Assembly (NCBI RefSeq): GCF_024139115.2
Contig: NC_085141.1
Location: 72,581,481 to 72,645,480, forward strand
Reading direction: 5' to 3'
Length of the DNA: 64,000 bases
Source: Armigeres subalbatus
Lineage: Eukaryota > Arthropoda > Insecta > Diptera > Culicidae
Every line of letters begins with the position of its first letter. Within the stretch, counting starts at the first letter, position 1. Below the pieces are notes generated by a model, which was not told the DNA's origin, did no database searches, and was given only the letters and a program-made list of their open reading frames with translations. Both the position numbers and the translations under genes were made by a program. Positions 4,926 to 62,790 of the stretch are shown here, piece by piece.

Positions 4926-7701
4926 TCAACTAAGTAGCTGCTTAAAAGGCAGCTTTACGTGAAACACAAAGTCTCTTAAACTGTGATAGTGTAGTTGCAC
5001 GTTTGATATGTGTCCGCATCGATTTGCAATAATTGATACCTTTAAAAACAAAGAATTTTGTGAAGCTCCATGCACAAAGTACGGTGTTCTTAGATCTTCC
5101 GCGTTTCTAGTGTTATATCTATGCATTTCACTTCCTCTTTCCATTCGACCACACAAATATCGAGGCAGCAATCCGTTAATTACTTTAAAAAAGAACACCA
5201 TTGTTAAATACACAATGCTTTTGCTTCACCGAGAGCCACTGCAAAGCATCCAACAAAAAAAGTTGAGGAAGTGAATCTGTTACATCTCAAAATCAAACGC
5301 ATAATCTTATTCTGCAAACGCTGCAATCTCGATATTTGTGTCTGATTTGCTAAAAACAAAATGGAAGGACAAAAGTCCAAGTGAGGAGAGATGATTGATT
5401 TGTACAACTGTATTTTGCTAGCAATATTTAATTCGTTTTTCAGTCGACAGAGGATTCCATACTTCTTGGCTATTTTCTTGATGACATTGTCAATGTGTTG
5501 GTCAAATTTCAATTTATCATCAATAATCACGCCAAGATATTTAATTTCCCGTACGCGATCAAGTGTCTCGTCATCAATTTTCACAGAGACATTATCTATT
5601 GAACGATTTCGCGAAATAATCATATACTTTGTTTTACTAATATTCAATTTTAACTGTTTGTACTTCAACCATCTACTTAAAGAATGCAAGTCTTCATTCA
5701 AGCGTTCAATCGCATCTTCTAAGTCTCTAGCTGCAATGAATAACACAGTATCATCTGCGAATAAGTTTATATCACAAAAACGTAAAACCCGTCGCATGTC
5801 ATTTATATACATAATAAACAAAAGGGTGGGTGTTCTCCACGGGATTAGATACAGAATCATTAAAAGCAGTCCGTTGAGTTCTGTCAGACAAATAGCTTTT
5901 AAACCAATTGTATGCAGAACCCGAAATTCCAAAGCGCTCTATAGTTTTCAACAATAAGGGCCTAGAAATTGTCTCAAAAGCGCGTTTCAGATCCAAGAAC
6001 ACAGCAACAATCGTATCTTTACGCTCTATGCTTTCTTTCCATTTAGCTAATACCAAGTTCAAAGCGGTTTCGCAGGAGTGACCCTCCGGTATCCCGATTG
6101 TTCCGGTATTAACAAGCTATTACTATTTAAATACATAAGTAGCTGGCCTTTCACAACAAGTTCTAAAATTTTCTCTACTGTGTGCAACATGTTGATGGGA
6201 CGAAACTCTTCGGCTTTAATCGTTCCAGCAACTTTTGAATTGGAATCACTAACGATTCCTTCCAAACTTGCGGCACGTGCCCAGTTTGCAATGATTCATT
6301 TATCAGGTCCAGCAGGTTGTGTCCGATGACATGAAAGCAATCTTGTATAATTTTAGCATTAACATTATCAATACCAGCCGTTTTTCCTAAATTAAAACAA
6401 ATCGTTTCAAGTTCTTGAAATGTTATGGGGTGAAAACTTTCGAATCTCAAGTTACTGTTGACTGGTTGTTTTATTTCGTCAGGTTCATCCACTAACTCGA
6501 TAGATCGGTTAATGGTTGAAACACTGTCGACAAAATAATCATTAAATTTAGACGCAATTACTTCTTCTGATTCTTCTAATGTGCCATTAAAAGTTATGGA
6601 TCGTGGTTTACAAGAACTAGGTTTTAACAAAGATTTTAATATTTTCCATAACTCTTTGCTGTTGTTTTGATGCTGATAAATTTTCCTCTGAATATATTCG
6701 CATCGAGTATGCTTTAAACATTGCGAATATTTATTCCGCGCAACCTGGTACCTATTCCAATGATTTTCATTATTACTTTTACGACATTTTTTGTACAACT
6801 TATCTCTTTTACGTTTAAGACGTAAAAGATCTAGATTGTACCAGCTGTTTGAATTATTCAAAGTTACTAATTTCTGTTCAACTAATTGATTGGTACAGGA
6901 TTGTAAGACGCTCGTGATAACAGCTGCTCTTCGATCTAAATTACCAGTATTTTCTTGAAAATCCACCTTTGTTTCGATATGGCTCGTAATTGCTTGTTTC
7001 GAATATTTTCTCCAGCACTTAAGTTTTACCAAATCGTTATTATTACTACTGTCATCTGTAATGCTAATGACTAGTGTTTCATGATCGGTTACTTTTAAAT
7101 CACAATTCGTAACACTAGTGACAGAATCAAAGTTAGAGTAAACATGATCAATCAAAGTTCTACTGTGCCGAGAAATACGCGTATACTCATTTACTTTTTG
7201 TTTTAAATTAAAAAAGTCAACTAATCGCTTCAAATGATTCGAATTTGAATCGTCACACCAATTGATATTAAAATCGCCAGCAATAACATTTAATTTACTA
7301 GGATCCATAAACAACTCTAACCAGTTTTCAAAAATTTCCAAAAAATGCTGGTCATTAGCACTGGGAGAGTGATATAAAATACCGTAATTACCCAACTTCA
7401 TGCCACGTATAACTGCAATGCCTAAGAACCAATTGCCATCGCAAACTTCGTTCAATTGAAGCTTGAACTGAACTGATTCTTTGACATAAATAGCAACTCC
7501 GCCGGTGTGTCTCGAATGTGATAGACAAGCAGCAACACTATATCCCGGAATACTATATTGATCAAATGCTTCTAAGTTAACAATATGAGTTTCAGATAGA
7601 AATACTAAAAGTGGACGTTTATCTTCTACAATCTTACGTAGTGCAACGTAGTTTGTAGACAAACCAGCAATATTCAAATACAAAATATCTAAATTATTCA
7701 C
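4926..7701 (-). pseudogene. ORF2 (endonuclease + reverse transcriptase), frameshifted
   Basis: Reading leftward from 7701, LNIAGLSTNY and FLSETHI open an APE-type endonuclease, followed by the catalytic VIAGDFNINW and VTDHETL blocks. The first frame runs about 500 codons into the RT start. The RT then continues in three other frames: FRPINML in 6265-6059, FLDLKRAFETI in 6062-5799 and NLFADDTVLF in 5932-5204. The last piece, 5213-4926, holds the C-terminal tail. The usual GVPQGS block expected between NDSVSNP and LFIMYIND is missing, so a small deletion removed part of the RT palm near 5830-5850. At least four frameshifts make it non-functional. A DFKAAYD-like or RNase H motif is absent. Confidence 0.8.
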
Positions 7702-9244: not shown

Positions 9245-9695
9245 AGCCGTATAGACGGAAGCTCTACACCATCCGAGCTGGTGAAGTAAGTATATCAATG
9301 ATTCTGACAAGCCAGTTTATTAATTCTGTAATAAAGCATGGATTTGGCAAGCAATATGTCCAGTTCCAGTAACCCATTTCAGACTGCCTGGTATTCCATA
9401 ACCAATCCGAGGTCATTTTCCTCACAATAAGCCCCGCCCATTTATGCTATCATTATCAAATGGATAAAGGATTCATAAACAAACTTCCGGATTTGAAATC
9501 CAGTGCTGCTGTTGTTTTTTTTTTAATTGATATCATAGTATAAATATATTGAAACAATCTCACCAAATTCATCCGTTTTGTATAATGGAACTGAATCAGG
9601 GAAGTACACTTCCAGGACTAGCTTGTCGGTGAGTGGCTTTGGTTGCATTTAACATATAAGGCCATGGGGACGTCCAACCCGCAGGCGTTCAGGGT
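9245..9695. other. Spacer without recognised features
   Basis: No gene or repeat could be supported here. Confidence 0.4.
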
Positions 9696-12222: not shown

Positions 12223-13198
12223 GTGAGAATGGAGATAGAGACTGTCGGAGGCAATGTGCTACCAAAAGATGGTGCTCGCACGCGATTTTACCAGGCATCT
12301 TCGCCTGGTCCTTGGGTTGTTTACTTTCGGCAGAAAGTGAAAAGCCTAGACTTTCTCGGCATTAAACGAGATTTGACGCGTCGTTTTCCGAAGCTTGATT
12401 TTAACCAGATCAAAAAGAAACAAACTACGCATCACCGCACCTACAAAATTGCTGGCGATAGGGCGTACAATATTGAATATTTAGTATATGTCCCCTCGCG
12501 GGTGGTCGAGATAGAAGGTGTAATCAACGCAGCGATCCTGACTTGCAAGGATGTGCTTGCAGGTAAGGGTTACCTGAAGAACGCCCTGCAATCTACCGTG
12601 GATATTCTGGACTGCAAGGAATTGCATTCAGCAGCCACGCTGGATGGCAAAAAGGTATATTCTAAGTCAGGTTCGCCGGTTCGATGCTCCCAAAATATGT
12701 CAATATAGAGAATATGTTGTTTCCAGTGCGTCTTTTTGTGCCAAGGGTATTTAATTGTACCAACTGCAAACAACGTGGTCACAGTGCCGAATTTGGTGAG
12801 AACAAGCCACGTTGTGGTAAATGTTTCGAAAGACATCGGAAAGAGTCCTGCCAGCAAGAAGCAACAAAATCGACATTGTTGTTTCAAAAGGGCGAAAGTC
12901 GCAAACGTAAACATTGACTTCTGCTGAATTCAGAAAGATTAGAAACTTCTGGTGGTATTTTTCACTGCCGTTCTATAGAAGGCGCGGAGCGCCACCACTT
13001 CCAAGTAGTTGTTAGCTGGGAGCGGTCCTGGTTGTTGAGGAATTTGCATGAAAAGGCATTGTTTACGTTTGCGACATTCGCCCTTATGAAACAACAGTGT
13101 CGAAATGTGCTTATTGTGGCATGGATCCTACCCATGGTTTGCAAGAATGCCCGGTGTACAAAAAGCGCACCCAAAAAGTGAAGCGCTCATTGGTATAG
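12223..13198 (+). pseudogene. LOA-like ORF1 (gag-like), frameshifted and interrupted
   Basis: The first 160 codons contain SPGPWVVYFRQKVK, LGIKRDLTRRFP and YLVYVPSRVVEIEGVI, an RRM-like ORF1 domain of Jockey/LOA-type elements. A frameshift near 12690 leads to the knuckle region CTNCKQRGHSAEF...CGKCFERHRKESC, then CAYCGMDPTHGLQEC at 13104-13150 and a TAG at 13196. In the first knuckle the last Cys is replaced (FGE where FCE is usual). About 140 bp of non-homologous DNA bounded by a 46-bp inverted duplication separates knuckles two and three. The start is the first ATG in frame with the RRM-like domain. Confidence 0.7.
12871..13102. repeat. 46-bp inverted duplication inside ORF1
   Basis: Positions 12871-12916 are repeated as reverse complement at 13057-13102 with about four mismatches, around a ~140-bp spacer. 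The arm sequence is ORF1 coding sequence (around LLFQKGESRKRKH). The duplication is therefore templated from the gene itself rather than a separate element. It looks like an aberrant repair or template-switch event. Confidence 0.85.
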
Positions 13199-19385: not shown

Positions 19386-20165
19386 ATTTCCCACGTGCGC
19401 GGGTGAGTGAGTAAGTGAGTAACTCAGTGAGTAAGAAGGTGATTAAACAAGTGAGTGAGTGAGTGAATAAGTGAGTCAGCAAGTAAGTAAGTGAGTAAGC
19501 GAACAAATGAATGGAAAGACTATCGTTCATTAGCGTGTGAATAAATAAGTAAACGAACGCGATAAACCAATAAATGAAGATATAATCGTATGAGAGAATG
19601 AGTGACTGCTTAAGTGAGTGAGTGAGTGAGTAAGCGAGTGAGTAAATGAGTGAGTGAGTAAGTACGCGAGTGAGTAAATGAGAGAGTGAGTAGGTGAGTG
19701 AATGGGGAAGTAATTAAGAGTATGTGAGTGAGTAAATGTGAGTGAGTGAGTCAGTAAGTGATTGAGTAAGTTAATGAGTGAGTGAATAAGTGAGTGTATG
19801 AATAAGTAAGTTAGTAAGAGAGTAAATGAGTGAATGAGTAAGTGAGTGAAGTAAGTCCGTGAATAGGTGAGTGAGTGAAGAGTTAATCAGATGATGCGGA
19901 AAACTTGAGAGTGAGAAAAATTTAATGAACAAGGGGAATGAGGGATTGAGTGAGTTAGTAAAAGGACTAGTTAATAAATTAGTGAGGAAGTAAGCGTGTG
20001 AAGCCGTGAGTGACTGATTGGGTCAGTGAGCAAATTAATTAATTAGTAAGTGAGTGAATGAGTGGGAAGTGAGTAAGCGAGAAAACAAATTAATGATCAT
20101 TTGAGTAAGAATAAAAAAACGGACGAATTGATCAATAGGTGACAAAGTGAGTGAGTGAGTATGCG
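19386..20165. repeat. Degenerate (GTGA)n / (AGTG)n tetranucleotide tract
   Basis: Almost 800 bp are dominated by GAGTGAGT and AGTAAGTG words with many substitutions and short unique islands. Minus-strand frames reading LTHSLT repeats are a by-product. The tract ends just before the GATGCTGGGTCATTAGG element terminus at 20184. Confidence 0.9.
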
Positions 20166-20183
20166 AGATAATATGTGTGTAAG

Positions 20184-20376
20184 GATGCTGGGTCATTAGG
20201 TCGAAGGCCGTTAGGCCGAAGGTCATTAGGTCGAAAGCCATTAGGCCGAATGGTCATTAGGTCGAACGGTCATTAGGACGAATGAGAACTGGGAAATGAT
20301 AAGTGCGAAGTGAAGAAGAAGTAGAACGGAAGAAGAAAATAGAAAAAAGGAGGAAGATGGAAAAAGGAAGAAGGCC
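20184..20376 (+). mobile_element. Solo terminus of the ATTAGGCCGAA-minisatellite element
   Basis: GATGCTGGGTCATTAGG is followed by about six 15-17-bp units of (C/G)NNCATTAGG(T/C)CGAA, then GAATGAGAACTGG...GATAAGTG and a purine-rich tract (AAGAAGAAGTAGAACGGAAG). The order is the same, reverse-complemented, as the right end of the element at 45332-46918. Only one end is present here; the other end is absent or decayed. Confidence 0.8.
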
Positions 20377-45331: not shown

Positions 45332-46918
45332 GGTGTCAGGCCATTAGGCCGAAGGACGTTAGGCCGAAGGTTATTAGGCCGCATGGTCATTAGGCCGAAC
45401 GGTCATTAGACCGAATGGCCATTAGGCCGAATTAGCAAAAAGAGAAAAATGAGAAGTTCTTTCTTCACCTTACCCCTTCTTTCTTCTCCCTTCTTGCATA
45501 TTTCTTCTTCTATCTGGCTTCTTCCTTCTTCCATCTTCCATCTTCCATCTACCTTGTCTACCTACCATCTACCTTGTTTATTCTTCCATCTTCATTCTTC
45601 CTTCTTCCTTCTTCCTTCTTCTTTTTTCCTTCTTCCATTCTCCTTCTTCCTTCTTTCTTCTTTCTTCTTCCTTCTTCCTTCTTCCTTTTTCCTTCTTCCT
45701 TCTTCCTTCTTTCTTCTTCCTTCTTTCTTTATCAGTCTTCCTTCTTCCTTCTTTTTTCTTCCTTCTTCCTTTCTCCTTCTTCCTTCTTCTTTCTTCCTTC
45801 TACCTTCTTCCTTTTTCCTTCTTCTTCCTTCTTCCTTCTTCTTTCTTTCTTCTTCCTTTTTCCTTCTTCCTTCCTTTTCCCTTTTTTCTTCTTCCTTTTC
45901 CTTCTTCCTTTTTCCTTCTTTCTTTTCACTTCTTCCTTTTTAATTCTTCCATCTCCCTTCTTCCTTCTTCCTTCTTCCTTCTTCCTTCTTCTTTCTTCCT
46001 TCTTCCTCTTTCCTTCTTCCTTCTTCCTTCTTCCTTCTTCCTTCTTCATTCTTTCTTCTTTTTCCTTCTTCCTTCTTCTTTCTTCTTTTTCCTTCTTCCT
46101 TCTTCCTTCTTCCTTCTTCCTTCTTCCTTCTTCCTTCTTCCTTCTTCCTTCTTCCTTCTTCCTTCTTCCTTCTTACTTCTTCCTTCTTCTTTCTTCCTTT
46201 TTCATTTTTCTTCTTTCTTCTTCCTTCTTCCTTCTTCCTACTTCCTTCTTCGTTCTTCCTTCTTCCTTCTTCTTTCTTCCTTTTTCCTTCTTCCATCTTC
46301 CTTCTTCCTGGGTTAAAAGACTATTATTCTTCCATTTACTTCCACTATTAACTTTTTTATGTATCAACAATCAGATACGCATTTCGTTTCCTACTTGGAA
46401 ACTTCTTCAGTGTTTGTTATCGACCACTGAAGAAGTTTCCAAGTAGGAAACGAAATGCGTATCTGATTGTTGATACATAAAAAAGTTAATAGTGGAAGTA
46501 AATGGAAGAATAATAGTCTTTTAACCTTGTAGCATTTCCCCTAAGACGCTCTAAAATAATTAATCATTCCTTCTTCCTTCTTCCTTCATCCTTCTTCCTT
46601 CTTCCTGTTTCCTTCTTCCTTCTTTCTTCTTCCCTCTTCCTTCTACTTTCTTCCTTCTACTTTCTTCCTTCTTCATTCTTCCGTTTCCTTCCTTCTTTCT
46701 TCTTTTTCCTTCTTCCTACTTCTTTCTTCCTTTTTCCGTCTCCCTTCTTCTGTATTCCTTTTTACTTCTTCCTCCTATTTCCTTTTTTCTTCTTCCGTTC
46801 TACCTCTTCCTCACTTCACCCTACTCACTTATCACTCTCCAGTTCTCATTCGGCCTAATGGCCATTCGGCCTAATGACCATTCGGCCTAATAACCATTCG
46901 GCCTAATGACCCAGCATC
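45332..46918. mobile_element. Minisatellite-ended TIR element with a CTTCTTCC core, 9-bp TSD
   Basis: ATTCGTCAT flanks it at 45323-45331 and 46919-46927. The left end (GGTGTCAGGCCATTAGGCCG) and right end (inverse: GATGCTGGGTCATTAGGCCG) are imperfect TIRs. They grow into tandem 15-17-bp units of NNCATTAGGCCGAA on both sides (six left, five right, inverted). The interior of about 1.3 kb is a TTCCTTC/CTTCTTCC pyrimidine tract interrupted by a palindrome (46311-46525). A 9-bp TSD points to Mutator-like elements, but the terminal base pairs do not match perfectly, so the superfamily is a guess. Frames reading FFLLPSS repeats are artefacts. Confidence 0.8.
46311..46525. repeat. Near-perfect 215-bp palindrome (about 100-bp arms)
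   Basis: GGTTAAAAGACTATTATTC starts the left arm, and the right arm ends with GAATAATAGTCTTTTAACC. The arms meet around a 12-nt loop at 46413-46424 and appear virtually identical. It interrupts the pyrimidine tract. Such perfect arms imply very recent formation or ongoing correction; transcribed, it would be a long hairpin RNA. Confidence 0.92.
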
Positions 46919-52048: not shown

Positions 52049-52364
52049 TCTTACTTACTTACTTATGGATCCTGTACACCTCCGGTGGTGTAAAGGGCCG
52101 ACTTGAAAGATCTCCACCCTGAGCGTTACCCGGCTATCGCTTTAACCTGTTGCCAGGTTAGATTTCGGTCGACTTCTTTTATTTCTTTATTGAGGCTTCG
52201 CCGCCATGAGCCTCTGGGTCTGCCTCTGCTGCGATGTCCCGCTGGGTTCCAGTCTAATGCTTGTTTACAGATTTCGTTTCCGCCCCTACGTAAAGTGTGA
52301 CCGACCCAGACCCACTTCCGATCCCGAATTTCTGTTGCTATCGACCTCTGGTGACAACGATCTA
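52049..52364 (-). pseudogene. 3' end of a non-LTR RT interrupted by the giant TTAA element
   Basis: Minus-strand codons DRCHQRSIATEIRDRKWVWV, GHTLRRGGNEICKQALDWNP and RGRPRGSWRRSL form the C-terminal domain of an RTE/CR1-like RT (WIGHTLRR..RQALDWNPQG..RGRP type). The end is a (TAAG)n tail, CTTACTTACTTACTTA on the plus strand at 52050-52065. The upstream half of the same gene is 9.96 kb away at 62331-62785. Confidence 0.8.
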
Positions 52365-52404
52365 TTAACACTCCTCCGACCGTGATAGGTTTTACTTACA
52401 CGAA

Positions 52405-52652
52405 CGACCATGCCTCGAAAGACACTATTTTCAAATCGCTATATCTCAGCCGTTAGTGAACCGATTTGAATAATTTTGGGACTCACAAATTTTCCCGTCC
52501 ATCAAGATTTGTCTGAGATGTTGAGACCTCCGATCGGACCAAAAATAACCTCTGTGGACCTCCAAACGTCGGAGCAAGTCGTGATTTTCATACAAATTTC
52601 GTGGTTGGTGCTCACCAGCTTGATGTTCATGCTAATATTAGTAAGATACTTC
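52405..52652 (+). repeat. Left subterminal arm of the giant element
   Basis: Single-copy-like arm containing TCAAATCGCTATATCTCAGC, CGATCGGACCAAAAATAACC and GGTTGGTGCTCACCAGCTTG. It is matched, reverse-complemented and nearly base for base, by 62045-62290. The first ~40 bp inside the TIRs differ between the two ends. Confidence 0.85.
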
Positions 52653-54390
52653 GTAATCCGTGAGATTTAGAAAGTTGCCGTCTTCTACAATTTTGTTCGG
52701 GAGGTTGAAACCAAACTGTCGCAGATCATATTATTTTGGAACTCGTCCGCTTGGCGGCGCTAGTGTATATGGGAATACTCCGTCAGTCAAATATTTCGGA
52801 ATCCGTAGGACATAGAAAGCTGCCGACTTCTACAATTTTGTTCAGAAGACCAAAACCGTACTGTCGCAGATCATATTATTTTGGAACTCGTCCGCTTGGC
52901 GGCGCTAGTGTATATGGCAATACTCCGTCAGTCAAATATTTCGGAATCCGTAGGATTTAGGAAGCTGCCGTCTTCTACAATTTTGTTCAGAAGACCAAAA
53001 TCGTACTGTCGCAGATCTTATTATTTTGGAACTCGTCCGCTTAGCGGCGCTAGTGTATATGGGAATACTCGTTGGGTCAAATATTTCGGAGTCCGTAGGA
53101 TTTGGAAAGCTGCAGTCTTCTACAAATTTGTTCAGGAGGCCAAAACCATACTGTCGCAGATCATATTATTTTGAAATTCGTCCGCTTGGCGGCGCTAGTG
53201 TATATAAGAAAGCTCATTGAGTCAAATATTTCAAAATCCAAAAGATTTAGAAAGCTGCCGTCTTCTACAATTTTGTTTAGGACTCAAAAATATATTGTCG
53301 CAGATCATATTATTTTGGAACTCGTCAGCTTCGCGGCGCTAGTTTATAGGATAAAGCTAGTTGTGTCAAATATTTCGGAATCCGTAGGATTTAGAAAGCT
53401 GCCGTCTTCTACAATTTTATTCAAGAGGTCAGATCCATACTGTCGCAGATCATATTATTTTGGAACTTGTCCACTTGGCGGCGCTAGTGTATATAGGAAA
53501 GCAAGTTGAGTTAAATATTTCGGAATCCGATAGACTGAGAAAGCTGCCGTCTTCTACAATTTTGTTTAGGACTCCAAAAACATACTGTCGCAAACCTTAT
53601 TATTTTGGAACATGTCCGCTTCGCGGCGCTAGTGTATATGAGAAAGCTAGATGGGTCAAATATTTCGGTATCCGTAAGATTTAGAAAGCTGCCGTCTTCA
53701 AAAATTTTGTTCAGGAGGTCAGATCCATACTGTCGCAGATCATATTATTTTAGAACTCGTCCACTTGGCGGTGCTAGTGTATATAAGAAAGCTAGTTGGG
53801 TCAAATATTTCGGAATCCGTAAGATTCAGAAAGCTGCCGTCTTCTATAATTTTTTTTCAGGAGGCCAAAACCGCCAGCTTGGCGGCGCTAGTGTATATGA
53901 GAAAGCTCGTTGGGTCAAATATTTTGAAATCCATAAGATTTAGAAAGCTGCCGTCTTCTACAATTTTGTTCAGGAGGCCAAAACCATACTGTCGCAGATC
54001 ATATTATTTTGGAACTCGTCCGCTTGGCGGCGCTAGTGTATATGGCAATACTCGTTGGGTCAAATATTTCGGAGTCCGTAGGATTTAGAAAGCTGCCGTC
54101 TTCAACAAATTTGTTCAGAAGACCAAAACTATACTGTCGCAGATTACATAATTTTGGAACTCGTCCGTTTGGCGGCGCTAGTGTATATGGCAATACTCGT
54201 TGGGTCAAATATTTCGGAGTCCGTAGGATTTAGAAAGCTACCGTCTTCAACAAATATGCTCAGAAGGCCAAAACTATACTGTCGCAGATCATATTATTTT
54301 TGAACTCGTCCGCTTGGCGGCGCTAGTGTATATAAGAAAGCTAGTTGAGTCAAATATTTCGGAATCCGAAAGATTTAGAAAGCTGCCGTC
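52653..54390 (+). repeat. Left array of 145-bp units, about 12 copies
   Basis: The word ACTCGTCCGCTTGGCGGCGC (with variants) recurs at 52740, 52885, 53030, 53175 and onwards, with one shortened unit near 53880. The period is 145 bp. Each unit also has CAAATATTTCGGAATCCGTA, AGCTGCCGTCTTCTACAA and CTGTCGCAGATCATATTATT. Units in the middle (53170-53900) differ at many sites, so this side is older or less corrected than the right side. 145 is not a multiple of 3, so 60-135-codon frames here are accidental. Confidence 0.93.
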
Positions 54391-57300
54391 GGAATTCTTT
54401 CGGAAGTTCTTCCAGGAATTCCTCCGGAAGTTCCTCCAGGAATTCCTCCGGAAGTTCCTCCAGGAATTCCTCCGGGGGTTCCTCCAGAAATTCCTCCGGG
54501 AGTTCCTCCAGGAATTTCTCCGGAAGTTCCTCCAGGACTTCCTCCGGAAGTTCTTCCAGGAATTTCTCCGGTAGTTCCTTCGGGAATCCTCCGGAAGTTC
54601 CTTCGGGAATCCTCCGGAAGTTCCTTCGGGAATCCTCTGGAAGTTCCTCCAGGAATTCCTCCGAAAGTTCCCCCAGGAATTCCTCCGGAAGTTCCCCCAG
54701 GAATTCCTCCGGAAGTTCCCCCAGGAATTCCTCCGGAAGTTCCCCCAGGAATTCCTCCGGAAGTTCCTCCAAGAATTCCTCCGGAAGTTCCCCCAGGAAT
54801 TCCCCCGGAAGTTCCCCCAGGAATTCCCCCGGAAGTTCCCCCAGGAATTCCCCCGGAAGTTCCTCTAGGAATTCCTCCGGAAGTTCCTCTAGGAATTCCT
54901 CCGGAAGTTCCTCTAGGAATTCCTCCGGAAGTTCCTCTAGGAATTCCTCCGGAAGTTCCTCTAGGAATTCCTCAGGAAGTTCCTCTAGGAATTCCTCCGG
55001 AAGTTCCTCTAGGAATTCCTCCGGAAGTTCCTCTAGGAATTCCTCCGGAAGTTCCTCTAGGAATTCCTCCGGAAGTTCCTCTAGGAATTCCTCCGGAAGT
55101 TCCTCTAGGAATTCCTCCGGAAGTTCCTCCGGAAGTTCCTCTAGGAATTCCTCCGGAAGTTCCTCCGGAAGTTCCTCTAGGAATTCCTCCGGAAGTTCCT
55201 CTAGGAATTCCTCCGGAAGTTCCTCTAGGAATTCCTCCGGAAGTTCCTCTAGGAATTCCTCCGGAAGTTCCTCTAGGAATTCCTCCGGAAGTTCCTCTAG
55301 GAATTCCTCCGGAAGTTCCTCTAGGAATTCCTCCGGAAGTTCCTCTAGGAATTCCTCCGGAAGTTCCTCTAGGAATTCCTCCGGAAGTTCCTCTAGGAAT
55401 TCCTCCGGAAGTTCCTCTAGGAATTCCTCCGGAAGTTCCTCTATGAATTCCTCCGGAAGTTCCTCTAGGAATTCCTCCGGAAGTTCCTCTAGGAATTCCT
55501 CCGGAAGTTCCTCTAGGAATTCCTCCGGAAGTTCCTCTAGGAATTCCTCAGAAGTTCATCTAGAAATTCCTCCGGAAGTTCTTATAGGAAGTCCTCAGGA
55601 AGTTCCTCTAGGATTTCCTACAGAAGTTCCACTAGGATTTCCTCCGAAATTTCCTCCAGGAATTCCTCCGGAAGTTCCTCCAGGAATTCCTCCGGAAGTT
55701 CCTCCAGGAATTCCTCCGGAAGTTCCTCCGGAAGTTCCTCCAGGAATTCCTCCGGAAGTTCCTCCGGAAGTTCCTCTAGGAATTCCTCCGGAAGTTCCTC
55801 CGGAAGTTCCTCCAGGAATTCCTCCGGAAGTTCCTCCGGAAGTTCCTCTAGGAATTCCTCCGGAAGTTCCTCTAGGAATTCCTCCGGAAGTTCCTCTAGG
55901 AATTCCTCCGGAAGTTCCTCTAGGAATTCCTCCGGAAGTTCCTCTAGGAATTCCTCCGGAAGTTCCTCTAGGAATTCCTCCGGAAGTTCCTCTAGGAATT
56001 CCTCCGGAAGTTCCTCTAGGAATTCCTCCGGAAGTTCCTCCAGGAATTCCTCCGGAAGTTCCTCTAGGAATTCCTCCGGAAGTTGCTGCAGGAAGTCCTC
56101 CGGAAGTTCCTCCAGGAATTCCTCCGGAAGTTCCTCCAGGAATTCCTCCGGAAGTTCCTCCAGGAATTCCTCCGGAAGTTCCTCCAGGAATTCCTCCGGA
56201 AGTTCCTCTAGGAATTCCTCCGGAAGTTCCTTCAGGAATTCCTCCGGAAGTTCCTCTAGGAATTCCTCCGGAAGTTCCTCTAGGAATTCCTCCGGAAGTT
56301 CCTCCAGGAATTCCTCCGGAAGTTCCTCCAGGAATTCCTCCGGAAGTTCCTCCAGGAATTCCTCCGAACGTTCCTCCAGGAATTCCTCCGGAAGTTCCTC
56401 CAGGAATTCCTCCGGAAGTTCCTCCAGGAATTCCTCCGGAAGTTCCTCCAGGAATTCCTCCGGAAGTTCCTCCAGGAATTCCTCCGGAAGTTCCTCCAGG
56501 AATTCCTCCGGAAGTTCCTCCAGGAATTCCTCCGAAGTTCCTCCAGGAATTCCTCCGGAAGTTCCTCCAGGAATTCCTCGGAAGTTCCTCCAGGAATTCC
56601 TCCGGAAGTTCCTCCAGGAATTCCTCCGGAAGTTCCTCCAGGAATTCCTCCGGAAGTTCCTCCAGGAATTCCTCCGGAAGTTCCTCCAGGAATTCCTCCG
56701 GAAGTTCCTCCAGGAATTCCTCCGGAAGTTCCTCCAGGAATTCCTCCGGAAGTTCCTCCAGGAATTCCTCGGAAGTTCCTCCAGGAATTCCTCCGGAAGT
56801 TCCTCCAGGAATTCCTCCGGAAGTTCCTCCAGGAATTCCTCCGGAAGTTCCTCCAGGAATTCCTCCGGAAGTTCCTCCAGGAATTCCTCCGGAAGTTCCT
56901 CCAGGAATTCCTCCGGAAGTTCCTCCAGGAATTCCTCGGAAGTTCCTCCAGGAATTCCTCCGGAAGTTCCTCCAGGAATTCCTCCGGAAGTTCCTCCAGG
57001 AATTCCTCCGGAAGTTCCTCCAGGAATTCCTCTGGAAGTTCCTCCAGGAATTCCTCCGGAAGTTCCTCCAGGAATTCCTCCGGAAGTTCCTCCAGGAATT
57101 CCTCCGGAAGTTCCTCCAGGAATTCCTCCGGAAGTTCCTCCAGGAATTCCTCCGGAAGTTCCTCCAGGAATTCCTCCGGAAGTTCCTCCAGGAATTCCTC
57201 CGGAAGTTCCTCCAGGAATTCCTCCGGAAGTTCCTCCAGGAATTCCTCCGGAAGTTCCTCCAGGAATTCCTCCGGAAGTTCCTCCAGGAATTCCTCCGGA

Positions 57301-60300
57301 AGTTCCTCCAGGAATTCCTCCGGAAGTTCCTCCAGGAATTCCTCCGGAAGTTCCTCCAGGAATTCCTCCGGAAGTTCCTCCAGGAATTCCTTCGGAAGTT
57401 CCTCCAGGAATTCCTTCGAATGTTCCTCCAGGAATTCCTCGAAAGTTCCTTCAGGAATTCTTTCGTAAGTTCCTCCAGTAATTCCTCCGGAAGTTCCGCC
57501 AGGAATTCCTCCGGAAGTTCCTCTAGGAATTCCTCCGGAAGTTCCTCTAGGAATTCCTCCGGAAGTTCTTCTAGGAATTCCTCCGGAAGTTCCTTCAGAA
57601 ACTCCTCCGAAAGTTCCTCTAGGAATTCCTCGGAAGTTTCTCTAGGCATTCCTCCGGAAGTAACTCCAGGAATTCCTCCGGAAGTTACTTGAAGAATTCC
57701 TCCGGAAGTTCATCCAGGAATTCCTCCGGAAGTTCCTCCAGGAATTCCTCCGGAAGTTCCTCCAGGAATTCCTCGGAAGTTCCTCCAGGAATTCCTCCGG
57801 AAGTTCCTCCAGGAATTCCTCCGGAAGTTCCTCCAGGAATTCCTCCGGAAGTTCCTCCAGGAATTCCTCCGGAAGTTCCTCCAGGAATTCCTCCGGAAGT
57901 TCCTCCAGGAATTCCTCCGGAAGTTCCTCCAGGAATTCCTCCGGAAGTTCCTCCAAGAATTCCTTCGGAAGTTCCTCCAGGAATTCCTCCGGAAGTTCCT
58001 CCAGGAATTCCTCCGGGGGTTCCTCCAGAAATTCCTCCGGGAGTTCATCCAGGATTTTCTCCGGAAGTTCCTCCAGGACTTCCTCCGGAATTTCTTCCAG
58101 GAATTTCTCCCGTAGTTCCTTCGGGAATCCTCCGGAAGTTCCTTCGGGAATCCTCCGGAAGTTCCTTCGGGAATCCTCTGGAAGTTCCTCCAGGAATTCC
58201 TCCGAAAGTTCCCCCAGGAATTCCTCCGGAAGTTCCCCCAGGAATTCCTCCGGAAGTTCCCCCAGGAATTCCTCCGGAAGTTCCCCCAGGAATTCCTCCG
58301 GAAGTTCCCCCAGGAATTCCTCTGGAAGTTCCCCCAGGAATTCCTCCGGAAGTTCCCCCAGGAATTCCTCCGGAAGTTCCCCCAGGAATTCCTCCGGAAG
58401 TTCCCCCAGGAATTCCTCCGGAAGTTCCTCCAGGAATTCCTCCGGAAGTTCCTCCAGGAATTCCTCCGGAAGTTCCTCCAGGAATTCCTCCGGAAATTCC
58501 TCCAAGAATTCCTCCGGAAGTTCCCCCAGGAATTCCTCCGGAAGTTCCCCCAGGAATTCCTCCGGAAGTTCCCCCAGGAATTCCTCCGGAAGTTCCCCAG
58601 GAATTCCTCGGAAGTTCCCCAGGAATTCCCCCGGAAGTTCCCCAGGAATTCCCCCGGAAGTTCCCCCAGGAATTCCCCCGGAAGTTCCCCCAGGAATTCC
58701 CCCGGAAGTTCCTCTAGGAATTCCTCCGGAAGTTCCTCTAGGAATTCCTCCGAAAGTTCCTCTAGGAATTCCTCCGAAAGTTCCTCTAGGAATTCCTCCG
58801 GAAGTTCCTCTAGGAATTCCTCCGGAAGTTCCTCTAGGAATTCCTCCGGAAGTTCCTCTAGGAATTCCTCCGGAAGTTCCTCTAGGAATTCCTCCGGAAG
58901 TTCCTCTAGGAATTCCTCCGGAAGTTCCTCTAGGAATTCCTCCGGAAGTTCCTCCAGGAATTCCTCCGGAAGTTCCTCCAGGAATTCCTCCGGAAGTTCC
59001 TCTAGGAATTCCTCCGGAAGTTCCTCTAGGAATTCCTCCGGAAGTTCCTCTAGGAATTCCTCCGGAAGTTCCTCTAGGAATTCCTCCGGAAGTTCCTCTA
59101 GGAATTCCTCCGGAAGTTCCTCTAGGAATTCCTCCGGAAGTTCCTCTAGGAATTCCTCCGGAAGTTCCTCTAGGAATTCCTCCGGAAGTTCCTCTAGGAA
59201 GTTCCTCTAGGAATTCCTCCGGAAGTTCCTCTAGGAATTCCTCCGGAAGTTCCTTCAGGAATTCCTCCGGAAGTTCCTTCAGGAATTCCTCCGGAAGTTC
59301 CTTCAGGAATTCCTCCGGAAGTTCCTTCAGGAATTCCTCCGGAAGTTCCTTCAGGAATTCCTCCGGAAGCTCCTCCAGGAATTCCTCCGGAAGTTCCTCC
59401 AGGAATTCCTCCGGAAGTTCCTCCAGGAATTCCTCCGGAAGTTCCTCCAGGAATTCCTCCGGAAGTTCCTCCAGGAATTCCTCCGGAAGTTCCTCTAGGA
59501 ATTCCTCCGGAAGTTCCTCTAGGAATTCCTCCGGAAGTTCCTCCAGGAATTCCTCCGGAAGTTCCTCCAGGAATTCCTCCGGAAGTTCCTCCAGGAATTC
59601 CTCCGGAAGTTCCTCCAGGAATTCCTCCGGAAGTTCCTCCAGGAATTCCTCCGGAAGTTCCTCCAGGAATTCCTCCGGAAGTTCCTCCAGGAATTCCTCC
59701 GGAAGTTCCTCCAGGAATTCCTCCGGAAGTTCCTCCAGGAATTCCTCCGGAAGTTCCTCCAGGAATTCCTCCGGAAGTTCCTCCAGGAATTCCTCCGGAA
59801 GTTCCTCCAGGAATTCCTCTGGAAGTTCCTCCAGGAATTCCTCCGGAAGTTCCTCCGGAAGTTCCTCCAGGAATTCCTCCGGAAGTTCTTCCAGGAATTC
59901 CTCCGGAAGTTCCTCCAGGAATTCCTCCGGAAGTTCCTCCAGGAATTCCTCCGGAAGTTCCTCCAGGAATTCCTCCGGAAGTTCCTCCAGGAATTCCTCC
60001 GGAAGTTCCTCCAGGAATTCCTCCGGAAGTTCCTCCAGGAATTCCTCCGGAAGTTCCTCCAGGAATTCCTCCGGAAGTTCCTCCAGGAATTCCTCCGGAA
60101 GTTCCTCCAGGAATTCCTCCGGAAGTTCCTCCGGAAGTTCCTCCAGGAATTCCTCCGGAAGTTCCTCCAGGAATTCCTCCGGAAGTTCCTCCAGGAATTC
60201 CTCCGGAAGTTCCTCCAGGAATTCCTCCGGAAGTTCCTCCAGGAATTCCTCCGGAAGTTCCTCCAAGAATTCCTCCGGAAGTTCCTCCAGGAATTCCTCC

Positions 60301-60574
60301 GGAAGTTCCTCCAGGAATTCCTCCGGAAGTTCCTCCAGGAATTCCTCCGGAAGTTCCTCCAGGAATTCCTCCGGAAGTTCCTCCAGTAATTCCTCCGGAA
60401 GTTCCTCCAGTAATTCCTCCGGAAGTTCCTCCAGTAATTCCTCCGGAAGTTCCTCCAGTAATTCCTCCGGAAGTTCCTCCAGGAATTCCTCCGGAAGTTC
60501 CTCCAGGAATTCCTCCGGAAGTTCCTCCAGTAACTCCTCCGGAAGTTCCTCCGGAAGTTCCTCCAGGAGTTCCC
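54391..60574. repeat. Core 24-bp minisatellite, about 258 copies
   Basis: The unit joins GGAAGTTCCTCC and AGGAATTCCTCC, containing the palindromes GGAATTCC and TCCGGA. Main variants differ at one place (CCTCCAGG, CCTCTAGG, CCCCCAGG, CCTTCAGG) and cluster in blocks. A variant block with CTTCGGGAATCCTCCGGAAG occurs at 54570-54640 and again at 58110-58185. Its preceding GGGGGTTCCTCCAGAAATTC also recurs, an offset of 3,541 bp, so a 3.5-kb segment was duplicated. Because 24 is divisible by 3 and no phase contains a stop, all six frames are open, producing frames up to 1,115 codons. None is considered a gene. Confidence 0.95.
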
Positions 60575-60655
60575 ATAAAAGTTTGAAGAAGACAGACTTT
60601 TTTCCAAGTCTTCCAGTTTCCAAGACAATGTATCAACTATGCATAAACCATATAA
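60575..60655. other. Core-to-right-array junction
   Basis: About 80 bp (AAAGTTTGAAGAAGACAGAC...CCATATAAATCAG) fit neither repeat and are not matched at the left junction (54390), where array and core meet directly. Confidence 0.7.
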
Positions 60656-62044
60656 ATCAGCGCCACCAAGCGGATGAGTCCCGAAATAATATTAACTGAT
60701 ACAGTATGGTTCTAAACAAATATGTAGAAGACAGCCACTTTGTAAATCCTACGGATTCCGAAATATTCGACTGACCGAGTATTCCCATATAAACTAGCGC
60801 CGCCAAGCGGACGAGTTTCAAAATAATATGATCTGCGACAAAATGGTTATGGCCTCCTGAACAAATTTGTAGAAAACGGCATTTTCTAAATCTTTCGGAT
60901 TCCGAAATATTTGACGCAACGAGTATTGTCATATACACTAGCGCCGCTAAGCGGACGAGTTCCAAAATAATATGATCTGCGACAGTATGGCTTTGGCCTC
61001 CTGAACAAAATTGAAGAAAACGGCATTTTCTTAATCTTTCGGATTCCGAAATATTTGACTGACGGAGTATTGCCATATACACTAGCGCCGCCAAGCGGAC
61101 GAGTTCCAAAATAATATTATCTGCGACAGTACGGTTTTGGTCTTCTGAACAAAATTGTAGAAGACGGCAGCTTTCTAAATCCTACGGATTCCGAAATATT
61201 TGACTGACGGAGTATTGCCATATACACTAGCGCCGCCAAGCGGACGAGTTCCAAAATAATATGATCTGCGACGGTACGGTTTTGGTCTTCTGAACAAAAT
61301 TGTAGAAGACGGCAGCTTTCTAAATCCTAAGGATTCCGAAATATTTGACTGACGGAGTATTGCCATATACACTAGCGCCGCCAAGCGGACGAGTTCCAAA
61401 ATAATATGATCTGCGACAGTACGGTTTTGGTCTTCTGAACAAAATTGTAGAAGACGGCAGCTTTCTAAATCCTAAGAATTCCGAAATATTTGACTGACGG
61501 AGTATTGCCATATACACTAGCGCCGCCAAGCGGACGAGTTCCAAAATAATATGATCTGCGACAGTACGGTTTTGGTCTTCTGAACAAAATTGTAGAAGAC
61601 GGCAGCTTTCTAAATCCTAAGGATTCCGAAATATTTGACTGACAGAGTATTGCCATATACACTAGCGCCGCCAAGCGGACGAGTTCCAAAATAATATGAT
61701 CTGCGACAGTACGGTTTTGGTCTTCTGAACAAAATTGTAGAAGACGGCAGCTTTCTAAATCCTACGGATTCCGAAATATTTGACTGACGGAGTATTGCCA
61801 TATACACTAGCGCCGCCAAGCGGACGAGTTCCAAAATAATATGATCTGCGACAGTACGGTTTTGGTCTTCTGAACAAAATTGTAGAAGACGGCAGCTTTC
61901 TAAATCCTACGGATTCCGAAATATTTGACTGACGGAGTATTGCCATATACACTAGCGCCGCCAAGCGGACGAGTTCCAAAATAATATGATCTGCGACAGT
62001 TTGGTTTCAACCTCCCGAACAAAATTGTAGAAGACGGCAACTTT
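60656..62044 (-). repeat. Right array of 145-bp units, about 10 inverted copies
   Basis: The inverted unit word GCGCCGCCAAGCGGACGAGT recurs at 60797 (variant), 60942, 61087, 61232 and onwards to 61957, every 145 bp. The outer six units (about 61087-61979) are almost identical, with only 1-3 differences, while inner units and the whole left array are diverged. This shows recent expansion or gene conversion at the outer right side. Confidence 0.93.
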
Positions 62045-62290
62045 CTAAATCTCACGGATTTCGAAGTATCTTACTAATATTAGCATGAACATCAAGCTGG
62101 TGAGCACCAACCACGAAATTTGTATGAAAATCACGACTTGCTCCGACGTTTGGAGGTCCACAGAGGTTATTTTTGGTCCGATCGGAGGTCTCAACATCTC
62201 AGACAAATCTTGATGGACGGGAAAATTTGTGAGTCCCAAAATTGTTCAAATCAGTTCACCAACGGCTGAGATATAGCGATTTCAAAATAG
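62045..62290 (-). repeat. Right subterminal arm of the giant element
   Basis: Reverse complement of 52405-52652, with only scattered substitutions (for example AATTGTTCAAATCAG against the inverse of CCGATTTGAATAATT). Confidence 0.85.
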
Positions 62291-62330
62291 CGTTCCGACT
62301 GTTTGGGAGGCACGGTCGGAGGAGTGTTAA

Positions 62331-62790
62331 TGAACACCTGCAGCCATTGCGTGTTCTCCACTGATACACAGCATGTTTCGCTAGCGTATAACAGCACAGA
62401 TTTCACGTTAGAGTTGATAATTCGTATTTTGGTGCGTTCACTTATCTGCCTGTTTTTCCAAATATTTCTTAAGCTCGCAAAGGCAGCCCTTGCTTTCTTG
62501 ATCCGTGCGCCTATGTCGATCTTGGTACCGCCGTCTGACGCCATTTGGCTACCAAGATATTGGAAGCTTTCAACATTCTCCACTAGTTGCCCGGCTTTTT
62601 TAAAACTGGAAGGAGTCACCGTGTTTACATCCAACGATTTGGTTTTGTTGATGTTGATGACTAAACCTGCCGAAGAGGAGCGCTCGGCAAGGTCGTTGAG
62701 CTTACTCTGCATATCAGAGCGCCGTTGCGCGAGGAGTGCAACGTCATCATCCAATTCGAAGTCGATAAGGTGCACGAGCTCGAGCGGTTA
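62331..62790 (-). pseudogene. RT palm/thumb fragment interrupted by the giant TTAA element
   Basis: Minus-strand codons DVALLAQRRSDMQSKLNDLA, GLVININKTKSLDVNT, GQLVENVESFQYLGSQM, RQISERTKIRIINSNVKS and VLLYASETCCVSVENTQ run to LQVFIN at 62331. There the TTAA site begins. The expected FADD is altered (FELDDD). The downstream half (DRCHQRSIATEI...) resumes at 52364 on the far side. The gene is truncated at its 5' side near 62790, so it was already a fragment. Confidence 0.8.

Follow-up and report, generated by a model that had tools for sequence, protein, structure and literature searches.

Within a 64,000-nucleotide stretch of the Armigeres subalbatus genome (contig NC_085141.1, positions 72,581,481 to 72,645,480; hereafter the window), a 9,958-bp block at 52369–62326 represents one member of a piggyBac-type family of large elements that has been moving recently. 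It is very probably a non-autonomous copy of a cut-and-paste family of the piggyBac superfamily with a foldback body plan. The link to piggyBac is established: the family is multicopy, with asymmetric ends and duplicated TTAA target sites, uninterrupted relatives of the target exist, and a piggyBac transposase occurs with the same ends. An initial annotation had described TTAA flanks, a perfect 16-bp terminal inverted repeat (TIR), inverted subterminal arms, inverted 145-bp arrays and a 24-bp minisatellite core, all of which were confirmed at the coordinates below.

52080..52364 (limits approximate), minus strand: host non-long-terminal-repeat (non-LTR) retrotransposon fragment, left of the insertion
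52365..52368, strand not applicable: left TTAA target site, a single TTAA in four uninterrupted relatives of the host fragment
52369–62326, 9,958 bp: whole element, with TTAA on either side and perfect 16-bp TIRs
52369..52384, plus strand: left 16-bp TIR, CACTCCTCCGACCGTG; 83 genome left ends at ≤1 mismatch, control 0
52385..52645, plus strand: left subterminal arm, first ~37 bp its own, the rest shared with the right end
52646..54390, plus strand: left 145-bp array, ~12 units of a family-specific repeat
54391..60573, plus strand: 24-bp minisatellite GGAATTCCTCCGGAAGTTCCTCCA, ~258 copies, the same repeat as a genome-wide minisatellite
60574..60709, strand not applicable: short spacer with a partial unit, separating the minisatellite from the right array
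60710..62069, minus strand: right 145-bp array, inverted, ~9–10 units
62070..62310, minus strand: right subterminal arm, unshared for ~17 bp beside the TIR
62311..62326, minus strand: right 16-bp TIR, a perfect inverted copy of the left
62327..62330, strand not applicable: right TTAA target site
62331..62790 (limits approximate), minus strand: host non-LTR retrotransposon reverse transcriptase (RT) fragment, right of the insertion

The subterminal arms measure ~260 bp each, and the ends are asymmetric because they differ in how many bases of their own lie inward of the TIR before the shared arm begins (~37 on the left, ~17 on the right). In inverted orientation the arms pair over 869 nt with 94% complementarity (52422–53290 with 61425–62293), and there are additional array-to-array pairings. 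The term 'giant palindrome', used initially for the whole block, fits these arms but not the 6.2-kb centre, which runs head-to-tail; inversion is limited to ~2 kb at either end of the element. By length, 62% of the element is 24-bp repeat, 32% is 145-bp array, 5% is ends and 1% is other sequence.

The 20-mer composed of TTAA and the TIR was found at 203 places in the genome with up to 2 mismatches, as compared with 1 for a reversed control pattern. The first 100 places listed, all exact, were taken for pairing, and 74 of them formed 37 inward-facing pairs of 3,554–15,950 bp (median 8,326), with 26 ends unpaired; the shortest listed pair lies at C3:51605708-51609261. In each of 33 pairs a single exact left end is matched with some other end, and the remaining 4 are without an exact left end. 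At least 40 near-complete matches to the 336-bp left end, the window's included, were present at 97–100% identity (best 40 of 777 candidates), and TTAA stands directly before 45 of the 49 exact left ends in the region common to both end lists, which extends to C3:186 Mb.

We examined 21 copies, 20 fetched from the genome and the window copy. The fetched copies were picked among the best matches, so the sample is biased to young copies; left ends in this set are 0–4 of 290 bases off the consensus, with a mean pairwise difference of 1.2%. Complete copies with both ends in hand number 17, with lengths of 6,706–11,584 bp. Exact listed partner ends would give 11,760 bp for L010, 15,422 bp for L015 and 13,940 bp for L024, while L014 had none among the matches listed. 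Further copies of differing core length, for which a genome search had been proposed, were found. Target sites are TTAA/TTAA in 15 of the 17 complete copies, TTAT/TTAT in L026 and TTAA/TTTT in L022. In L027, right ends at 7055 and 9145, ~2.1 kb apart, are each followed by TTAATAAT, so that its right part, flank included, looks duplicated.

When the flanks of the window copy are joined over one TTAA, a broken RT reading is obtained on the minus strand. The right part of this fragment has Pfam matches to DUF6451 (E 1e-15, passing the cut-off) and RVT_1 (E 3.6e-4, under Pfam's own cut-off); the left part had no Pfam match. The block had been placed 'within one interrupted RT gene', and an RT fragment is indeed split by the element, but the 'gene' is a non-LTR fragment that was already broken. 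A 440-bp query of the joined flanks matched 7 other genome places end to end (1–439 or 1–440) at 84–95% identity among the best 40 of 1,107 candidates. Seven relatives were fetched, comprising 5 of these and 2 that match in two parts, and a single uninterrupted TTAA was present in 4 of the 7 (L051, L052, L056 and L057). In these relatives the site is seen in its pre-insertion state only. Fuller relatives of the window's RT fragment have 64–65 bp next to the left TTAA that are missing from it; whether the insertion caused this gap is doubtful, because element-free relatives have varied gaps there too.

A search of the genome gave 124 matches to PF13843. Three are enclosed by the 15,950-bp TIR pair at C1:300618651-300634600 (the C1 copy), and two lie inward of an identical right-end TIR at C3:74193187-74193206. 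Over 290 bp the ends of the C1 copy are 95.2% (left) and 95.5% (right) identical to those of the window copy, and the C3 right end is 94.5% identical. The C3 transposase pieces match PF13843 at 2e-44 (first) and 1.7e-22 (second). Both align to the solved transposase structure 6x67, which we take to be piggyBac, and the first also to piggyBat 9c0f. In the alignment, TVDE, ADNWF and GVDILD of the C3 pieces stand opposite TIDE, CDNWF and GVDTLD, stretches that presumably hold the catalytic aspartates. At the end of the first piece stands a GT resembling a splice donor, so the gap to the second piece, 2.1 kb in C1 and 5.3 kb in C3, may be an intron. Against 5.8 billion proteins, the second C3 piece found 4 relatives, 3 without a name (54–60% identity) and one from Schistocerca that is named piggyBac-derived.

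The marks of piggyBac in the family are therefore TTAA duplication, a PF13843 transposase between the same ends (in relatives only) and three putative catalytic aspartate stretches. The descriptions 'piggyBac-mobilised' and 'non-autonomous' both stand, as two loci carry piggyBac transposase with the same ends and the window copy is without one. For the autonomous relative suggested as something to look for, transposase with the same ends is present at C1 and C3, but the frame is disrupted in the former and the left end was not located in the latter. Ends of another piggyBac locus, C1554, have the form TTAACCCTCTACT, and a simple scan of the flanks of a piggyBac locus at C3:26.86 Mb found no ends. 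A partial PF13843 match at C2:231897947-231898219, 3.2 kb beyond the left end of L016, is probably there by chance.

The two satellite layers differ in their distribution. For the 145-bp repeat, the most conserved 26 bases from 450 aligned units were used as a genome-wide probe, giving 683 exact matches (control 0). The 100 matches listed extend to C1:182 Mb. Ten clusters beside listed family TIRs account for 98 of them, and the other 2 form an eleventh cluster, at C1:168.456 Mb, that has no listed TIR; this repeat, in the exact form of the probe at least, is therefore a repeat of the family. Over the 450 units, conservation is highest across the 20 bases TTGGCGGCGCTAGTGTATAT (unit consensus columns 105–124), and our guess, made by analogy, is that this block could be a candidate transposase binding site. 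For the 24-bp repeat, 80,102 exact 39-mers were found (control 0), and the first 100 listed group into seven clusters, all within the initial 5.2 Mb of C1. One cluster (3 of the 100) is at a listed family TIR; the flanks seen of the other six (up to ~1.5 kb) contained neither a family end nor a 145-bp unit, where the array reached the edge or nearly so on two sides and where the minisatellite of the C1 copy itself lies >1 kb from its array. Extrapolating from this listed sample, the 24-bp repeat apparently lies mostly outside the family. The 24-bp arrays beside which no such family sequence was seen lie at C1:1.58–5.13 Mb (loci L058–L065).

The genome-wide minisatellite might have been seeded by the transposon instead of being taken up from the genome. 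The 24-bp repeat is already present in the transposase-bearing copy, and the family is both recent and dispersed, as seeding would have it; but 80,102 39-mers stand against 203 ends, and a family TIR was listed at just one of the seven clusters, which leaves seeding unlikely. Nor was the initial view supported, as worded, that a small element had grown into a macro-satellite, since arm arrays are already present in the 15.95-kb transposase-bearing relative and the 24-bp core is widespread outside the family. The satellite-only look of the window copy is due to the absence of the internal gene region together with a long minisatellite tract. Across 54345–60636 the 24-bp repeat is stop-free in several frames on both strands, and its open reading frames, the longest of 1,115 aa, might mislead gene finders into false calls.

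In the C1 copy the order is left end, 145-bp array, other sequence, two short 24-bp tracts, transposase, inverted array and right end. A core between the satellite layers is present in 19 of the 21 copies, the window copy and L009 being without one; these two have arms that are >99% identical, minisatellites that are many gaps apart and unrelated flanks. Fifteen copies (type A) retain the late part of the transposase only, matching the second piece of the C1 copy, and 6 have none. In 13 of the 15 the match starts at C1-copy positions 12,299–12,310, with 24-bp repeat directly before it; the outliers are L014 (12,330) and L023 (12,663). Type-A copies are without TVDE and ADNWF because these stretches, at 9,693 and 12,048 of the C1 copy, precede the match start. 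Coding pieces of a long interspersed nuclear element (LINE) then follow in 14 of the 15 (not in L025), and in 12 of these 14 an endonuclease start is joined straight to a later RT part, suggesting one common origin. This LINE lies within the tail of the transposase gene, a tail that we read from the letters as the putative Cys-rich end. At its default cut-off Pfam found nothing for five core proteins, and a lax cut-off gave weak matches to endonuclease, zinc knuckle and RT; what settled the nature of the type-A core was a comparison with the window's own LINE proteins.

The cores of L019, L020, L024 and L027 have no transposase match. Three of these four encode a zinc-knuckle, gag-like piece by eye (Pfam E 3.4 only), and L024 shares sequence with them. 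L024 and L027 match the transposase-bearing copy at its left inner array junction and therefore look like another deletion class. The core of L024 contains a nested stretch of ~5.3 kb from another non-LTR retrotransposon, and a like protein is encoded at window 5204–7701. In the type-A copies L018 and L023 the interior is reversed with respect to the ends, with the same array–minisatellite junction as in six unreversed copies, and these reversed interiors would fit recombination between the inverted arrays. A larger set of six flipped copies was considered and reduced to these two, as L019, L020, L024 and L027 are without the type-A core.

Segmental duplication or gene conversion, in place of transposition, could explain why 145-bp units from different copies resemble one another about as closely as units from the same copy, and L018, which has a left end on both sides, looks like the product of conversion or recombination between arms. 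On the other hand, no insertion site in common was found among the 17 flank pairs (left flanks compared over ~150–195 bp), the few right-flank matches between copies being other repeats, and relatives of the target without the interruption exist. Spread of the family by these routes is thus most improbable, and exchange inside copies is possible. Long arrays are difficult to assemble, and the two arms might be of separate origin, joined across satellite DNA by the assembler. Such an artefact is very hard to credit when the same layers (ends, inverted 145-bp arrays and 24-bp repeat) recur at 17 complete loci, the window's included, with unrelated flanks, and when a single RT fragment, found unbroken elsewhere, supplies the sequence on both sides of the window copy. 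Both explanations were rejected on these grounds.

Several points weigh against assignment to a mobile piggyBac family. Four of the 49 exact left ends (to C3:186 Mb) are without an exact TTAA, and the flanks of L022 differ. Among the 7 fetched RT relatives, L053 has TTGA and both L054 and L055 are without the site; the uninterrupted sites belong to other copies of the RT element, not to alleles of the window locus, and excision is unobserved. The transposase frame of the C1 copy is disrupted, at C3 two pieces are open but only the right end was located, and no copy is shown to be active. Pfam finds no Cys-rich tail domain in the transposase pieces read as such by eye. The terminus is CACT, whereas piggyBac in general has a 12–19 bp TIR ending in CC[C/T]T, according to the available excerpt of PMC2872659; the 16-bp length fits. 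The genome-wide TTAA+TIR pattern was built on CACT and hence is no independent test of the terminus. We weigh the transposase and TTAA above the terminus mismatch.

TTAA is also the target of Sola3, and the family might be moved by another TTAA-targeting superfamily, Sola3 or Kolobok. Kolobok elements insert at TTAA as well but have RR termini in the available part of PMC6004289, in contrast to the CACT of this family, and the gene between the same ends is PF13843/piggyBac (the genome was not searched for Kolobok or Sola transposases). We consider movement by either superfamily exceedingly unlikely; Kolobok was rejected on its termini and transposase type, though its target fits. Classification as a miniature inverted-repeat transposable element (MITE), usually <1 kb, was rejected on size, with 9,958 bp here and 3,554–15,950 bp among the 37 listed pairs.

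Assigned to the piggyBac superfamily, the family shares with it the TTAA target, a 16-bp TIR, asymmetric subterminal regions and, in same-ended relatives, a PF13843 transposase; it differs in its inverted 145-bp array arms, its minisatellite tract and paired ends 3.6–16 kb apart. In architecture, not descent, it is a foldback, its variable middle being enclosed by long inverted arms that consist of tandem subrepeats. Foldbacks such as Tetris of Drosophila virilis, FB and Galileo likewise have tandem-repeat inverted arms, variable middles, non-autonomous copies and a link to satellite DNA. Tetris has ~220-bp repeats and 8–10-bp target duplications, and most foldbacks seem to be Mutator, with exceptions, Galileo being cited as P superfamily, as far as the available text of PMC4079207 goes; here, by contrast, piggyBac and TTAA are involved. 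Transposase binding has been reported for Galileo arms in work cited in that same excerpt.

The nearest precedent for carriage of a satellite is Xmix/Xstir of Xenopus, a Kolobok T2-MITE with an amplified internal repeat (excerpt of PMC6004289, citing Hikosaka and Kawahara). It too is TTAA-targeting and non-autonomous and carries an amplified tandem repeat, but it has Kolobok-type termini, is termed a MITE, and is described in that excerpt with no mention of inverted array arms. The CMITE elements of corals are piggyBac-linked, non-autonomous, flanked by TTAA and able to form tandem arrays, but they are ~100 bp long and the arrays are made of the CMITEs themselves (excerpt of PMC2872659). A search of titles and abstract starts, with subscription journals and repeat databases outside its scope, found, in the part of the result lists covered, no piggyBac foldback or array-armed TTAA element of mosquitoes, in line with the initial statement that no described family with this three-layer plan was known.

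Two other array sets occur in the window. At 45342–46911, a CCTTCTT-type array (45475–46811) lies between 16-bp repeat arrays at 45342–45432 and 46847–46911 that are mutually inverted, a smaller example of inverted arrays around a simple-repeat core. At 19403–20284, a TGAG-type array is followed on one side only by a 15-bp repeat related to this 16-bp repeat.

For movement of the window element we propose that transposase from relatives would act in trans and cut at the TIRs, and that the whole block would be reinserted at a TTAA by cut and paste. The 145-bp arrays may provide long arms for recombination, and the minisatellite tract may travel as cargo of drifting length, altered by slippage or unequal exchange. 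We propose, more tentatively and at somewhat less than even chances, that a piggyBac lineage evolved the foldback plan independently, that its family-specific inverted arrays recombine, flip the interior and convert the ends, and that the element both spreads and edits a genome-wide minisatellite.

With arms made of its own array and a middle made of a genome-wide short repeat, the element is likely to be a vehicle that moves satellite DNA between places. Satellite DNA is here linked with a named cut-and-paste system, and relatives that bear a transposase occur alongside it in the genome; transport of satellites by a transposon thereby becomes testable, through comparison of insertion ages, minisatellite lengths and donor sites copy by copy. 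The foldback plan, in turn, appears to extend to the piggyBac superfamily.

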